From positions 1-31,946 of the IMG/VR virus record IMGVR_UViG_3300032288_001072: DNA of 31,946 bases; one strand, given 5' to 3'. The notes below the pieces were generated by a model. It saw only the letters and a program-made list of their open reading frames with translations. It searched no databases and had not been told where the DNA came from. Position numbers and translations under genes: made by a program. The DNA is from a virus. Below are positions 12,495 through 31,675 of this stretch, in pieces (positions within the stretch are counted from its first letter, which is position 1; each line of letters opens with the position of its first letter).

Positions 12495-13637
12495 ATGTCA
12501 AAACAAATTGCTAGACTGTTAAAAACCGATGTTATGGCTGATATAGATATACCAGCTATTGCACAATTTTTACAATCACAAGGAAGGCGCGGCGACACTA
12601 TCCTAGCGCACATCAATGCTAAAGAAGCTGAGATGCTAAAAAAGATGGGTGGCGCAGAAGAACGAAACCCTGTTACTGGATTGCCAGAGTATTTTAGCAT
12701 TGCTGATTACGGCTCTGGTTACGGCGCTGATTACGACCAATCAGTCGCAAGTAATAATCTAAGACTAGCAGACGAAGATATGTTTTATAGTTCACCTCGT
12801 TCTGTAACAAGTGATTACTCCCCAACGCAATATTCTTTTAATCCAGCAATGGAATCACCTATTGATATTGATAGCGCTGCTACTGGAAATGCTGGTCAAT
12901 TTAAAATGAATAGACCTGATAGCAGAGAATTTTTAGATAGGTTTAGTGTACCCGGTCTTCGCATGGATAGGCCTGATGTGCAAGGCGTTCGTGATTTTGG
13001 AGGAAGTGCTTTAGCTCCTGATCTAACTGTTCCAGAAGGTCTTAATATATATTCTAGCCAATCTGCATCAAATGCAAGAGAAATGGCAAATAGGGATTTG
13101 GCTAGAGAAAGAGGTACTCCCGGCATGATGGATCGTGCTTCTGCCGCTACAGGCTTATCTAAAGAAGCTCTTGCTCGTTTAGGTTTGGCTGGATTAGGAA
13201 CCGTTCAGGGAATAATGGCTTCTAGGGAAGCGTCAGAGCAAGGCCGTCAAGCTCGTCGTGAGACAGAAGCATTAGCCCGTCCGTATCAACAGCGTGGTCA
13301 ACAGTTGACTGAGCAAGCGCAAAGCGGTGAGTTGACCGCAGCAGGACAGCAACAACTACAAGCTCTACGTGCTAGGTTGGCACAAGGCGCTGAAGCTAGA
13401 GGTGGTGTAGGCGCTGCACAGGCTGCTGCTCAAGTAGAGGCTTTCCGTCAAAACCTGCTACAAAATCAGTATGATTACGGACAGAAGATTAGCAATATTG
13501 GCGACCAGTTAATGTTAGGCGCTATACGTACAGGTTTAGAAGCTGACCGTTATGCGGCTGGTCTTTCTAATACGTACTTTACTAATATGGCTAGTATTGC
13601 TGCTGGTATGCCTGTTCAATCTGGAGGTGAGCGTTAA
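12495..13637 (+). CDS. Virion-associated protein, possible ejection protein
   Basis: This encodes 380 residues from ATG 12495, one base after the previous stop, with GGGTGGC just upstream. A GTG at 12486 is possible but poorly supported. Residues ~34-65 contain 'DTILAHINAKEAEMLKKMGG' then 'NPVTGLPEYF', a motif recurrent in phage structural proteins near internal virion genes. The middle is disordered. The C-terminal half is helical and Gln/Ala-rich ('EQGRQARRETEALARPYQQR'), likely coiled coil. Co-transcribed with the neighbouring ejection-type genes. Confidence 0.65.
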   Translation: MSKQIARLLKTDVMADIDIPAIAQFLQSQGRRGDTILAHINAKEAEMLKKMGGAEERNPVTGLPEYFSIADYGSGYGADYDQSVASNNLRLADEDMFYSSPRSVTSDYSPTQYSFNPAMESPIDIDSAATGNAGQFKMNRPDSREFLDRFSVPGLRMDRPDVQGVRDFGGSALAPDLTVPEGLNIYSSQSASNAREMANRDLARERGTPGMMDRASAATGLSKEALARLGLAGLGTVQGIMASREASEQGRQARRETEALARPYQQRGQQLTEQAQSGELTAAGQQQLQALRARLAQGAEARGGVGAAQAAAQVEAFRQNLLQNQYDYGQKISNIGDQLMLGAIRTGLEADRYAAGLSNTYFTNMASIAAGMPVQSGGER

Positions 13638-15139
13638 TGGCTACTGCACTAGATTCTGCACTAGGCTTGTCATCCCTGCCAATAACGTCTAGGGTGATGA
13701 GTAAAGCTACAGGCAAAGACCCCGCACAGATTACGGCTGGTGAGATGTTTCCTGCCATGCAAGAGCGTCGAGGTGAAGAACTAAGGATTCGCCAGAGCAT
13801 TGCAGACACAGAATCTCAACTTGCTGGTAAAGAGCAAGAGCAAAAGGTTGCTGGCTTAGAGCAAAAACAATCTTTGCAGCAGGTTCAAGCTACAGAATTA
13901 CGTGATCTGCCTGAACGCACTAATCTAAATCTTGCTAGAGAAGAATTAAATAATGCTGCGTTTGTTCCAACAAAAGAAAACGCACAAGATATAGCTACTA
14001 TATTTAGTCTTGTCGGAATCATTGGCATGGCTATAGGTGGTGGAGCTAAAGACAATGCTTATGCCGCTATGTCTGGCATGAACGGAATGCTGGAAGGTTA
14101 TAAAAGAGGTCGTGCTGACGTTTATAAGCGTGAGCGCGATATGTTTGACAAGAATCTCAAAGCTTTGCAAACAAAGGTTCAAACTCTACAGCAAGAACTA
14201 ACAGAGGCTATTCAGCTTAAACAGCAAGACTTCAAGGCTGGCGAGACTGCTATCGAAATAGCATTAGCTAAGTCTGGTTCTGACCTTCTTGATCTCAAGC
14301 GCAAGAAGAATGGCGATATGGCTGCGTTGGAAACTGTTGTCCAGACAGGCAAGGATGTTGATTCTCTTGTCAAAATGTCTAACGACCAGTCTAAACAAGC
14401 AGAAGATCGTAAGTTTAAAGAAAGAGAATTGCAGCAGCAGGAGCGTTTGCGTCTTGCTCAAATGGCGCAGACAAGAGCGCTTGCTGAACTAAAAGGCACT
14501 ACTGGCGGTATAAAGATGCCAGCCAAGCTGCAAGAGGCTTACATTGCTGACAACCAGCTTCGTGTTGACATTAGTTCTTTGAAGAATCAACTGCAAGACC
14601 CGCAGCTTGTTCAGCAAATTAAACAGTACGGAGTAGAGTCTTTCTTGTCAGAAGAAGGTGGCAAAGCCATTTCTCAAGTAATGCAGCGTCAAATGCCTGA
14701 CAAGTTAGCCAAGTTCTTAACGGAAGTTAGGGATATGCGTAACAACTACTACCTGACTATTTCTGGTAAAGCCGTTACTGGTGGTGAAGCATTGCGTAAC
14801 TACGGAGTTGTGCCGCAGCCCGGTGATTCACAGCAACAGATGCTTAACAAGTTAGACGGTATGGAACGCCGAGTAGGTCAAAAGATTAACGCTATTCGCG
14901 GTCTGTATAACGCTCCAGACATTTCAGGTTCGTTGTCTCCCGGTACGCCAACGATGGTTAATCCTAACGAAAACTATTCAGTTAGAACTAGCGAACAACC
15001 TGCGGCTAGTGGTGGAGCAACCCAACGTCCATCATTTGCAAGTGAAGCGGCGGCTGACGCAGCGTTTGAAATTGGAAATATCCAAGATGGAACGCCAATT
15101 AATGTTGGCGGTAGAAACGCTATTTATAGGGCACGATAA
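13637..15139 (+). CDS. Large helical virion protein, possible ejection protein
   Basis: This encodes 500 residues, overlapping the previous stop (TAATG). Helical, Gln/Glu/Lys-rich coiled-coil segments (~45-105 and ~165-310) flank one hydrophobic glycine-containing segment (~119-136, 'IATIFSLVGIIGMAIGGG') that could insert into a membrane. The last 80 residues are low-complexity. This architecture, and the position between two other large proteins, resembles podovirus internal/ejection proteins. No enzymatic motif is visible. Confidence 0.65.
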   Translation: MATALDSALGLSSLPITSRVMSKATGKDPAQITAGEMFPAMQERRGEELRIRQSIADTESQLAGKEQEQKVAGLEQKQSLQQVQATELRDLPERTNLNLAREELNNAAFVPTKENAQDIATIFSLVGIIGMAIGGGAKDNAYAAMSGMNGMLEGYKRGRADVYKRERDMFDKNLKALQTKVQTLQQELTEAIQLKQQDFKAGETAIEIALAKSGSDLLDLKRKKNGDMAALETVVQTGKDVDSLVKMSNDQSKQAEDRKFKERELQQQERLRLAQMAQTRALAELKGTTGGIKMPAKLQEAYIADNQLRVDISSLKNQLQDPQLVQQIKQYGVESFLSEEGGKAISQVMQRQMPDKLAKFLTEVRDMRNNYYLTISGKAVTGGEALRNYGVVPQPGDSQQQMLNKLDGMERRVGQKINAIRGLYNAPDISGSLSPGTPTMVNPNENYSVRTSEQPAASGGATQRPSFASEAAADAAFEIGNIQDGTPINVGGRNAIYRAR

Positions 15140-28324: not shown

Positions 28325-29203
28325 TTATGCTGCTAGTAATTCATCCTCGACTAGTTCCTGCTTATCAGTGCCACAAGCTAACAAGAAATCACTGGCTTGC
28401 TGAGCTAATGCACTAGCTTTAAATATTGCTCTTGAATCTGCTTTCAAGCATTTAAGCCAGTGGTCTATATATCCGGCATGCCGCAAGTCACCTTTGATAC
28501 CTATTTGTTGACACATAAAAGCAGCGCCTAATTCAGCGACTAATTCTTCGAAAGCATAGTCACTGTTACCGAACCTGCCTTTACTTAGATCACGGTCGCA
28601 ACGCGTTTTCTCACTTGTCCAGTGTGTTAGTTCGTGAAAGAAAGTCGCGTAATAATGTTCGGTGCTTTGGAAGGTATTCAGAGCTGGCATGCGGATAGAA
28701 TCTATTGAGGGGATATAACAAGCAGTGTCACCCCCGATAGAATACTTTGCTGCAGTGGCAATGATTCTGCTTTCACAAGCTTCAATTTTTTGGTTATCTG
28801 ATACCGGAATATCTTCGCTAGGTATTATGTCAATACCGTCGATTTGCTCTACGTTGAAAACATAGGAAACCTTAGCGAATTGATAAAACTTATCTTCGCC
28901 TGATTGCTCTGCTTTCTTGTCTTTAGCTTGTGACCAGTAGACAATTTTTGTTGACTTTTCACCCTTACGAACTCTACCGCCTAGTTCATTCCATTGTTTC
29001 AAGCTTGCCCATGCCGGATTGTTATAACCTTTGATGCCACTAACCATTGCTGTAATAAATCTGTTAATGCCACGATAAGGTTTTCCACTAACTACATTCT
29101 TATCTGCACTAGCAGGAGCATGCCACGGCTTTACCCACGGAGTTGCGCCTTTTTCTAGTTCGCTAATGATTGAATCTGTAATTTCTTGATATATAGTCGT
29201 CAT
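28325..29203 (-). CDS. ardC: ArdC-like antirestriction protein
   Basis: This encodes 292 residues. The N-terminal ssDNA-binding-type domain (~1-125) shows 'YQEITDSIISELEKGATPWV', 'KPWHAP', 'GKPYRGINRFITA' and 'WASLKQWNELGGRVRKGEKS'. The C-terminal zincin-type domain has 'YYATFFHELTHWTSEKTRCD' with H190-E-x2-H194, and 'YAFEELVAELGAAFMC' with the probable third metal ligand Glu220 or Glu224. This two-domain layout and length match plasmid ArdC, which protects incoming DNA from restriction. It is the second gene from the early leftward promoter, fitting expression soon after entry. The start follows ACGGAGATTAGACA. Confidence 0.9.
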   Translation of the reverse strand: MTTIYQEITDSIISELEKGATPWVKPWHAPASADKNVVSGKPYRGINRFITAMVSGIKGYNNPAWASLKQWNELGGRVRKGEKSTKIVYWSQAKDKKAEQSGEDKFYQFAKVSYVFNVEQIDGIDIIPSEDIPVSDNQKIEACESRIIATAAKYSIGGDTACYIPSIDSIRMPALNTFQSTEHYYATFFHELTHWTSEKTRCDRDLSKGRFGNSDYAFEELVAELGAAFMCQQIGIKGDLRHAGYIDHWLKCLKADSRAIFKASALAQQASDFLLACGTDKQELVEDELLAA

Positions 29204-29237: not shown

Positions 29238-29447
29238 TTATGCTGCTAACTTGAAGTTATCTAATTTTTCCGTCAATTGCTCTTGAGTGTAAATTTTATT
29301 AATCCGCTTACCATTACCGAAAGAGTGAGTAACAGAGAATTTACCGTCTTTGCGTATGTTGTTAACTGTAATAACTTGACCTGATAATCTACCGTCTTTC
29401 TCTTGATTGAATTCACCGTAAACTTGTTTAAATATCATTGCTCTCAT
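29238..29447 (-). CDS. Hypothetical small basic protein, first gene of the leftward block
   Basis: This encodes 69 residues after TTAGGGGAAACAAA. It begins 'RAMIFKQVYGEFNQEKDGRL', is beta-rich in the middle ('SGQVITVNNIRKDGKFSVTH') and ends 'LTEKLDNFKLAA'. It is basic and soluble, with no known family. Being first after the proposed early promoter, it may act very early, for example against host defence or transcription (inference). Confidence 0.65.
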   Translation of the reverse strand: MRAMIFKQVYGEFNQEKDGRLSGQVITVNNIRKDGKFSVTHSFGNGKRINKIYTQEQLTEKLDNFKLAA

Positions 29448-29491
29448 TTTGTTTCCCCTAAGTAGTTAATAAATTGTTGTTGCTAGGTATT

Positions 29492-29519
29492 ATTATATAT
29501 AGGTTATAGGATTATGCAA
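29492..29519 (-). promoter_or_regulatory. Probable early leftward promoter
   Basis: On the minus strand TTGCAT (29519-29514), a 16-base spacer and a perfect TATAAT (29497-29492) form a sigma-70-like promoter. Transcription would start near 29485, about 38 bases before the first leftward gene. Confidence 0.45.
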
Positions 29520-29547
29520 TAGATTATCTTCATTGTATTTAACAATC

Positions 29548-29573
29548 TATTGTCTATAAACAATAGTTATAGG
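29548..29573. repeat. Operator-like repeat, copy 2
   Basis: TATTGTCTATAAACAATA plus GTTATAGG matches copy 1 (27193-27218) at 22 of 26 positions. Here the dyad is better: CTATTGT (29547-29553) and ACAATAG (29560-29566) are a perfect 7-bp inverted repeat. It lies about 30 bases upstream of the proposed early promoter. Confidence 0.55.
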
Positions 29574-29660
29574 CTATATATATCTATATAATATATATAG
29601 AAGGGTTTATATAATTATTATATAAGTTGTTTAATATAAATATATAGCAGTTGGTAATTG
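29574..29660. other. Extremely AT-rich segment between divergent blocks
   Basis: The segment is almost all A and T with many TATATA steps and the short G-containing break AGAAGGG. No frame is open. It could hold overlapping promoters for both directions or an unwinding element. Nothing more specific is visible. Confidence 0.5.
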
Positions 29661-29666
29661 TGCAAT

Positions 29667-30244
29667 GGGGGAAAGAGAACAAGAGGCGTCCTACCATCCC
29701 CCCTAGGGGATTATCGAAAAGGGTAAAGGGTTTGGTTCCCTTCCCTACCGATAGCCTTGTGGATAGTGCTTAGAATCGTTTTAATCAGTATCTAAAATGG
29801 GAAAGGGTTGTGCCTGTTAGCGTTTAACCTTGTGCTTGTCTTTCTGGCTATGTCGATGGGTCTTGACCTTGATTGTTGCGTGCCCTATCCCGCTCCCTCC
29901 CCAAAGAAATTTACTGTTTTTCGTGGTTCTGGTATTCTTTCTTTCGTTCCGCTTAGAAGCATTGTGCTGTACCCGGGGTTAGTGGCTGTAACCACTAGCC
30001 TCAACACGCATGAGGATTGAGCTTGGGCTGCGATCACAGCCTGATGGGATAGTGGAATCATAAGTATTGCGCACACTTCTTATGACAGCTATTGAGATAC
30101 CAGTCCTCAGTCGTGTTGGTTAAGTTTCTAGTGGTAGCTGTTTAACTTTACAGTTATAGTGTTCTTGATTTTCCTTCTGTGTTGACTATGCCTCCCCTCG
30201 CTTGGCTAGTCATTTAGCCCCGTCCGTGTGATGGGGTTTTTTTT
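29667..30244 (+). ncRNA. Candidate structured non-coding RNA region
   Basis: There is no credible gene for ~600 bases, but there is a succession of strong hairpins. They are 29667-29702 (GGGGGA/TCCCCC), 29712-29753 (three-tier: TATCG/CGATA, AGGG/CCCT, AAGGG/CCCTT), 29977-30000 (9 pairs including one G-U), 30026-30041 (GGCTG/CAGCC), 30058-30085 (TCATAAG/CTTATGA), 30136-30155 and 30183-30212 (TGACTA/TAGTCA plus GCC/GGC). A rho-independent terminator at 30218-30244 ends the series. The 5' end and promoter are not defined, and the AT-rich segment just upstream could provide one. Family unknown. A long untranslated leader or origin structure is an alternative. Confidence 0.5.
30218..30244 (+). terminator. 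Rho-independent terminator, rightward
   Basis: CCCCGTC (30218-30224) pairs with GATGGGG (30230-30236), one G-U pair, loop of five, followed by eight Ts. It ends rightward transcription only 41 bases before the first late-side gene, so that gene needs its own promoter, read-through or antitermination. Confidence 0.88.
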
Positions 30245-30285
30245 CGTCTGTATGTAGTATATGATTATGGCTAGGAGGTATTGAT

Positions 30286-30519
30286 ATGGATAGAGGTGTA
30301 GATATGGGAGTTATTATTGATGATGCTGTTCCTATGCCGGGGGCTAGGGTGGTAAGACGGTATCCGTATGCAGAGATGGGGGTTGGGCAGAGCTTTTATG
30401 TAGAGGGTGTGCAGATGCAAGTGGTGCTAAATGGTAATTGGAGGGCGGGTAAGAAGTTGAACATGAAGTTTATTGCTCGCCGTGAGGGTGATGGCATACG
30501 TGTATGGAGGTCAGAATGA
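30286..30519 (+). CDS. Hypothetical small protein, first gene of the rightward block
   Basis: This encodes 77 residues after CTAGGAGGTATTGAT, a strong ribosome site. 'VRRYPYAEMGVGQSFYVEGV' followed by 'KLNMKFIARREGDGIRVWRS' is a pattern seen in small phage and prophage proteins of unknown role. Basic, soluble, beta-rich. TATGAT at 30260-30265 could be the -10 of a promoter, but no good -35 is visible. ATGA overlap with the next gene. Confidence 0.7.
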   Translation: MDRGVDMGVIIDDAVPMPGARVVRRYPYAEMGVGQSFYVEGVQMQVVLNGNWRAGKKLNMKFIARREGDGIRVWRSE

Positions 30520-30734: not shown

Positions 30735-31032
30735 GTACAAGGAGGAGCTATTGCTCTCCAGACGTATCTTGAAAAATGAGATGAACAGAGCAATAAAGGC
30801 TATCAAACCTGCGGAGAAGATAGAGTTAGTACGTGGGTGGAGAGAAGTGTACAGACCGGAGATAGTGGACGAGCTTCTGCGTGTTGCTAAAGACAAAGAG
30901 GCAAGGCTACGTATTGCCAACTGGAATCTGGATAATTTTGAGGGGGGTAGAATTGGAAAATCCGTCAGTAGCAGTAGTAACAATAACGTCAAACCGCAAA
31001 GAGTTAAAGAGAACTATACAAAGTATAAATGA
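30697..31032 (+). CDS. Possible terminase small subunit
   Basis: This encodes 111 residues after AAGAAGGTGCTAA. It is strongly helical and charged ('KNEMNRAIKAIKPAEKIELV', 'YRPEIVDELLRVAKDKEARL') with a low-complexity Ser/Asn tail (~92-98). Small size, helices and position one gene upstream of terL are compatible with TerS, but no clear HTH is visible and the glycosyltransferase gene intervenes. The last 80 bases overlap that gene in another frame. Confidence 0.4.
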   Translation: MENSTQQSDTQDKYKEELLLSRRILKNEMNRAIKAIKPAEKIELVRGWREVYRPEIVDELLRVAKDKEARLRIANWNLDNFEGGRIGKSVSSSSNNNVKPQRVKENYTKYK

Positions 31033-31675
31033 GCAGACCTACCCTTGTTCTCATTACCTTTTTACTGATGGCATTATTAGCTTTGAAGATTACTTAGAGT
31101 TAGCTAAGACGCACCGTTCTGACAAGCGCTTTGTGTCGTATTGGGATAGGCGTACAGGCAATAACGGAAATCACTTAATAGCGGCTTGTGCTAGCTTAGT
31201 AACAGAAGACATTATGATGGTCTTGGCTGATGATGATTGGTACAAGCCTAATCACGTTGAAAGCCTTGTCAACATTATCAAAGAAGGCAACGATTGGGCA
31301 TACAGCTTTCGCTCTATCTACGACAAGGAGGAGAACTTTTTGTTTGATGACTTGTGTGAGTCGTTAGGCGAGGAACATTGGGCGTGGAATGAAGTAGGAC
31401 ATCATTTTGCTGAAACAGGCTCGGTTGCTATGAAGACGGAATGTTATAGAAACTTAGCCAACATCTATAACTTTAAAGAGTGGGGAACCGATAGAATCTT
31501 TTATCAAAACGCAAAACAACTCTATCCTAAGTTTAAAGGAAGCAAACAACACACAGTCTGTTTTCGTCTGGGTGGTAACCCCGGCTCAGTAAGCAAAGAG
31601 TTTTTAGAATACGGCAATGAATTCATTATGAATAAATACAATGGACAATTGCCTTGGGTAACAAATGAAATTTAA
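30953..31675 (+). CDS. Glycosyltransferase, family 2-like (GT-A fold)
   Basis: This encodes 240 residues from TTG 30953, chosen because GAGGGGGGTAGAA lies directly upstream and the protein then opens 'ENPSVAVVTITSNRKELKRT', the normal GT-A start strand. 'TIQSINEQTYPCSHYLFTDG' continues the nucleotide-binding fold, and 'IMMVLADDDWYKPNHVESLV' carries the D-D-D (93-95) metal/donor motif. 'EWGTDRIFYQNAKQL' may be the acceptor-side acidic region. Target unknown: DNA, host glycan or virion. It lies between a possible TerS and TerL, overlapping both, an unusual site for such a gene. Confidence 0.85.
   Translation: MENPSVAVVTITSNRKELKRTIQSINEQTYPCSHYLFTDGIISFEDYLELAKTHRSDKRFVSYWDRRTGNNGNHLIAACASLVTEDIMMVLADDDWYKPNHVESLVNIIKEGNDWAYSFRSIYDKEENFLFDDLCESLGEEHWAWNEVGHHFAETGSVAMKTECYRNLANIYNFKEWGTDRIFYQNAKQLYPKFKGSKQHTVCFRLGGNPGSVSKEFLEYGNEFIMNKYNGQLPWVTNEI

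Follow-up and report, generated by a model that had tools for sequence, protein, structure and literature searches.

A putative phage small-RNA gene and the exchangeable hairpin module that it carries

The window, meaning the whole stretch of DNA analysed here (IMG/VR virus record IMGVR_UViG_3300032288_001072, 31,946 nt), contains near its right end an interval (29667-30244) that raises the question of which kind of element occupies it. A sequence-only reading had described about 600 bases without a credible gene, carrying six or seven strong stem-loops and ending in a textbook rightward terminator, and had proposed an independently transcribed, large ornate RNA resembling GOLLD or ROOL or representing a new class.

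Gene context and extent of RNA structure

The interval separates leftward from rightward genes. On its left are an ArdC-type anti-restriction protein recognised by Pfam (28325-29203, leftward) and a small gene, the last leftward one, which starts at 29447. On its right, small rightward genes begin at 30286, followed by terL, which starts at 31665 and shows 85% identity to an annotated terminase large subunit. A glycosyl transferase family 2 gene (30881-31675; Pfam PF00535, E 1.9e-8) is located directly upstream of terL, and RecE- and RecT-like genes are also encoded in the window. Neither strand has a long ORF from 29447 to 30286, which bears out the earlier statements that the interval holds no credible gene and that no rightward gene lies upstream of the terminator. 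An AT-rich spacer (29492-29641, no strand assigned), part of a block conserved in blastn comparisons with relatives, sets the left half of the interval apart from the leftward genes and probably contains the promoters of these genes. Beyond the terminator, the plus strand carries a candidate second promoter -10 element (TATATGAT) together with the Shine-Dalgarno sequence of the rightward genes (30258-30278). A similar sequence is found 3' of the terminator in relatives; no good -35 element was found for this candidate, which may serve the rightward genes.

The left half (29642-29915, no strand assigned) is an element of near-constant length (268-278 nt in 23 sequences) that features G-run motifs and is closed by a conserved C-rich stretch, followed by AAAGAAATTT. 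Its folding in the window is at the level of shuffled sequences (z -0.35), and the group behaves alike, with a mean z of -0.34 and a reverse-strand mean of -0.48 (n = 23 sequences); RNAalifold detects almost no common pairs among the same 23 sequences. The strong stem-loops read in this half are thus not borne out. A protein-coding role was also rejected because no frame stays open across relatives. The left half is probably a DNA control element rather than an RNA structure, and might comprise binding sites, an origin or a packaging site.

The right half (29945-30244), in contrast, is structured, with a minimum free energy of -101.4 where shuffled sequences give -84.1 (z -3.26), and it carries the signal of the whole 611 nt (z -2.3). 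Since the excess folding is confined to this half, the structured portion amounts to about 300 nt rather than 600, and the stem-loop series and the independently terminated structured RNA of the earlier proposal hold for 29945-30244 only. The parts described for the right half are a predicted promoter (29910-29938), a framed hairpin of 119 nt (30001-30119) and a core RNA of 78 nt (30167-30244).

Core RNA, predicted promoter and variation among relatives

The core RNA (plus strand) is the constant component of the locus and consists of the unpaired stretch GATTTTCCTTCTGTGT, a hairpin (30183-30212) and an intrinsic terminator (30216-30244). Its unpaired 5' stretch is near-invariant (GAUUUUCCUUCUGUG), and the window contains no second 11-nt complement of it besides the locus itself. 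The terminator, likewise on the plus strand, agrees with the earlier description, having a stem of nine pairs including G-U, five of them G-C (30216-30238), and eight Ts that run to 30244. Segment 30168-30244 folds with a z of -5.14. Across 19 distinct relatives, 93.6% of the core pair cells are standard versus 80.3% after shuffling, and the covariation score is 0.510 versus 0.262; these values were reached by none of 500 shuffles, and slid controls are 37-44% paired. Compensatory changes affect both the hairpin stem and the terminator stem, so that the covariation sought in the stems is indeed found by this shuffle test. The core is therefore a conserved, covarying structure that ends in an intrinsic terminator, as in terminated phage small RNAs (sRNAs), and is regarded as a new member of this ordinary kind. 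In four relatives (L002, L003, L004 and L005), a gene of about 200 codons has been inserted after the terminator, ahead of the first of the rightward genes.

The predicted promoter (29910-29938, plus strand) comprises TTTACT, a 17-nt spacer and TATTCT preceded by TGG. This extended -10 element (TGG TATTCT) corresponds to TCTGGTATTCT at 29928-29938, and a transcript start is predicted near 29945. The pattern TCTGnTAnTCT is present at the promoter position in nearly all relatives and occurs twice in the whole window, versus 0.25 occurrences expected by chance; the -35 element varies in spacing and is not conserved. In some relatives, an HNH-endonuclease-like frame, recognised by eye, is situated at AAATTT just 5' of the promoter position (L013:1235-1660, L039, L005 and L090), and the insertion of such a gene at the promoter end shows that mobile elements target this locus.

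Relatives gathered by terL and ArdC searches amount to 111 loci, some of which share a contig. Comparison of the interval with these by blastn reveals two conserved blocks (29492-29944 and approximately 30160-30245), and the stretch between them is absent, replaced or extended among relatives. In 21 relatives, only 6-18 nt separate the promoter from GATTTTCCTTCTGTG and the core, so that an RNA of about 80 nt is predicted. The window and six other loci have a promoter-to-core distance of 73-459 nt that is filled by hairpin modules. The size and ornate look of the interval are thus attributable to a discrete module that has been gained, lost and multiplied in relatives.

The hairpin module and its tRNA-shaped partner

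The framed hairpin module of the window (30001-30119, plus strand) is built from two frame strands (30002-30019 and 30101-30118) that enclose a cargo of 81 nt (30020-30100). The frame, CAACACG-CA-TGAGGATTG / CAGTCCTCA-GT-CGTGTTG with an internal loop CA/GT, places 30002-30118 in the module class. The segment 29988-30120 folds with a z of -2.63, and 95% of cells of the window frame type are paired versus 80% after shuffling, in a test that used only instances found without the free bases of the frame. On the 5' side, an accessory hairpin is predicted on the plus strand (29975-30001; GGGGTTAGTGG-loop-CCACTAGCC(T)C); its folding alone is not significant (z -1.14), and variants of it occur in L083, L009 and L013. 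On the 3' side, a repeat-like spacer can be read from the sequences (30122-30158, plus strand; AGTTTCTAGTGG...TTTAACTTTACAGT), and similar spacers adjoin modules in L002, L007, L009 and L194. The cargo family recurs in two further contigs, L217, which has one weak protein match to the window, and L437, which has none. Its inner hairpin is also present at position 13389 of L435, a contig with no protein in common with the window, where five tRNA genes (12833-13666) surround this copy. Directly 3' of the window module, the tRNA-shaped partner described below is absent, GTGTTGG being followed by TTAAGTTTC..., and no complementary CCAAC strand is located between the module and the core. The window module is regarded as an allele of an element widespread in phages, in which a covarying frame holds exchangeable structured cargo.

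Beyond this phage group, the pattern of the module 3' strand gives at least 120 matches in viral contigs. The 123 distinct units fall into 85 cargo clusters, and a single cargo family can be joined to different downstream partners, three each for clusters X9 and X6. Only 33 of 116 module-bearing loci share any protein with the window (E 1e-5). The element lies between Q and the holin gene in lambdoid phages (L317) and just 3' of tR' in phage lambda, forms an array adjoining tRNA-Asn and tRNA-Thr in a P1-like plasmid (L314), and has further copies beside tRNA-Arg and tRNA-Ile. Of 5,426 complete E. coli genomes, 1,929 contain a match to a lambdoid copy of 391 nt, and most of the matches among those listed have no annotated feature beneath them. 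A query with the lambdoid frame hit 457 phage records; at the permissive limit used, many of these matches were short and partial. A search of the open-access literature found no description of the module, and an older or paywalled one is possible; 'boundary sequences' annotated on both sides of a copy in phage CUS-3 suggest that parts of it may have been noticed. The module, found neither in Rfam nor in the open-access literature, is apparently undescribed, so that the earlier suggestion of a new class applies to the module and not to the interval as a whole.

The tRNA-shaped partner is recognisable in 74 of the 123 units. Loci for the frame test were collected by the downstream partner motif only (AATGCGnAGnCTGATnCGC) to avoid bias, which gave 128 unique instances, 105 of them with a T-arm-like hairpin. 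The strand after this hairpin is complementary to the 7 nt that precede the motif, at all seven positions in 91 of the 105, and the paired instances include dozens of different acceptor-stem sequences. In 48 distinct rows, 91.7% of the acceptor cells are paired versus 61.7% after shuffling, and the stem mismatches comprise 28 G-T versus 5 A-C on this strand, indicating that selection acts on RNA of this strand. The partner accordingly combines a covarying 7-bp acceptor stem with D-arm-like and 5-bp T-arm-like hairpins whose loops are complementary, the T-arm abutting the acceptor directly. Upstream pairing is also specific, in that 51 of 128 instances prefer their own hairpin strand over all of about 25 swapped ones, and the mean duplex energy is -21.6 with the own strand versus -15.7 with swapped strands, the stem sequences being unrelated. 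As the middle strand is common to the hairpin and the tRNA-shaped partner, both cannot form in full. Elements of this shape with a hypervariable insert and a competing hairpin on the 5' side occur at L314:1430-2350, L313:1270-1660, L317:1440-1650 and L440:900-1060, in a P1-like plasmid, lambdoid prophages and lambda; they are unannotated there and either adjoin tRNA genes or lie between Q and the holin gene.

Several candidates were set aside during this survey. A boxA-like reading of the GCTCTTT in the E. coli frame was abandoned, since in other frames this sequence is substituted and the pairing restored by compensatory changes; genome matches L303, L304, L306 and L309 are likely chance matches in coding sequence; and the M3 RNA of phi80 is an annotated homologue of lambda oop, the Q-S gap of phi80 being without a module. 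Sampling of a D-arm-like pattern gave 2 of 274 genomes in the class to which the Polynucleobacter genome belongs versus 1 of 296 in a control phylum, and hence no useful distribution signal. Among other RNAs encountered, Rfam RT-15 RNA (167 bits) is present at L333:8777-8959, on a contig that also has a tRNA-shaped element elsewhere. Permuted tmRNA is matched below threshold (28-29 bits, where gathering requires 47) upstream of the element at L311:1222-1345 and L312:1170-1310, in the phages Bas80 and STGO-35-1.

Possible functions and comparison with known systems

The explanation favoured here, with moderate confidence, is that the locus is a stand-alone phage sRNA gene with an inserted, exchangeable RNA module. 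This is supported by the core covariation, the kept promoter, the promoter-to-core distances and the unstructured left half; by the frame covariation, the recombined cargo families, the occurrence of cargo in unrelated contigs and the RecE/RecT-like genes; and by the promoter-like repeat of the pattern just 3' of the terminator, available to the rightward genes. The extended -10 promoter would start a transcript that ends at 30244. The core, whose unpaired stretch, hairpin and terminator form an arrangement typical of base-pairing regulatory sRNAs, could then pair in trans through its 5' stretch, and in the window the framed and accessory hairpins between promoter and core would extend an RNA of about 80 nt to one of about 300 nt. 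The frame is constant and selected at the RNA level; the cargo is swapped between unrelated phages. Judging from the shuffled combinations of cargo and partner, homologous recombination at the frames is the probable means of this exchange. A role for the cargo as a decoy, as a ligand or in processing is speculative. For the locus itself, a trans-acting phage sRNA is the best candidate function, followed by a late-operon attenuator.

The attenuator, which we consider unlikely, would have 29910-29938 as the late promoter and the RNA to 30244 as a leader, with regulated read-through of the terminator (antitermination) switching on the packaging and structural genes. The pR'-tR' region of lambda with its 6S RNA is a late-gene antitermination leader of this type. 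The order of promoter, terminator and rightward operon fits an attenuated leader equally, and the unit does stand directly before packaging genes. In MW202825, a distant circular relative, the element has a similar C-rich end, after which come a promoter-like TTATACT and, directly, rightward genes, and lambda modules of the same class lie just 3' of tR'. However, the unit is kept in L002-L005, where another gene sits 3' of the terminator, and a possible separate promoter follows the terminator. The failure to recognise an antiterminator among the window proteins scanned, which covered part of the small ORFs, is weak evidence in the same direction.

It has also been considered that the module acts as DNA, its inverted repeats being recombination or insertion sites comparable to boundary sequences or MITE-like elements and its RNA structure a by-product. 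Gain and loss as blocks, placement between genes, shuffling and the 'boundary sequence' features on both sides of the CUS-3 copy are in keeping with this. It is nevertheless improbable, as pairing is preserved in stems of widely differing sequence, something for which short homology sites have no need, the excess of G-T over A-C mismatches is that expected for RNA, and the partner has tRNA proportions. A single large ornate RNA of about 580-600 nt, GOLLD/ROOL-like or of a new large class, would suit the length, the terminator and the phage context but is very improbable given that the left half shows neither excess folding nor common structure across 23 sequences, the lack of an Rfam match and a size that varies by whole modules.

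Tentatively, phages of Proteobacteria may share a modular RNA system in which a conserved hairpin frame and a tRNA-shaped partner compete for one common strand, both with hypervariable exchangeable cargo, beside tRNA genes or late operons, the window carrying a single-hairpin allele within an sRNA gene. Such a system could provide decoys or ligands that diversify, directed for instance against tRNA-cutting host nucleases, or could act as a switch in late-mRNA processing; a molecule under changing selection, as in evasion of defence, would be expected to show just this combination of a fixed tRNA-shaped frame and hypervariable cargo. The module is abundant yet resides in annotation-free gaps, and its presence in lambda and P1-like plasmids makes its function testable in textbook laboratory phages. 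The window locus offers a well-delimited putative sRNA gene from a phage group that is common in aquatic settings, and the gain and loss of modules between close relatives amount to a natural experiment on module function.

Comparison with known RNAs places the locus apart from the large phage classes. At the gathering threshold, Rfam gives no match in the window and nothing relevant in relatives, GOLLD and ROOL are without a match in 13 relatives, and a permissive scan of 29450-30320 finds neither up to E 10; together with the unstructured left half, this leaves the proposed likeness to them unsupported. Assembly into homo-oligomeric cages is a further trait of the two classes. GOLLD and ROOL are likewise phage-borne structured RNAs of unknown function, often near tRNA islands (PMC12286853), as are many copies of the module class near tRNAs, but each has one conserved fold of 600-800 nt, whereas the window RNA is short and modular. 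The weak matches at 30185-30245 to RF02278 (Betaproteobacteria toxic small RNA; 26 bits, gathering 50) and RF02837 (anti-hemB; 23.3 bits, gathering 49.5) likely reflect shared shape only, that is, a hairpin plus terminator of similar size.

The boundary sequences (bsq) of lambdoid phages such as CUS-3 resemble the module in being conserved, non-coding and located in the same Q-S gap; the two bsq features of CUS-3 flank the element rather than cover it, and these sequences have been proposed as recombination linkers, not RNA (PMC3029335).

The lambda late leader (pR', 6S RNA and tR') resembles the predicted layout of the window locus, with a promoter, a short RNA and an intrinsic terminator directly before late genes. 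Similarity of the promoter or terminator sequences is not seen, and a Q-like protein is not recognised in the window; a module of the same frame class follows right after tR' in lambda, whereas in the window it lies between promoter and terminator. The partner of many units is tRNA-like in its 7-bp acceptor stem and its D-arm-like and T-arm-like hairpins. It differs from tRNA in having a variable insert in place of the anticodon arm and is not recognised as tRNA by ARAGORN or Rfam; in L315, the hairpin strand is instead the starting point of a genuine tRNA-Arg.
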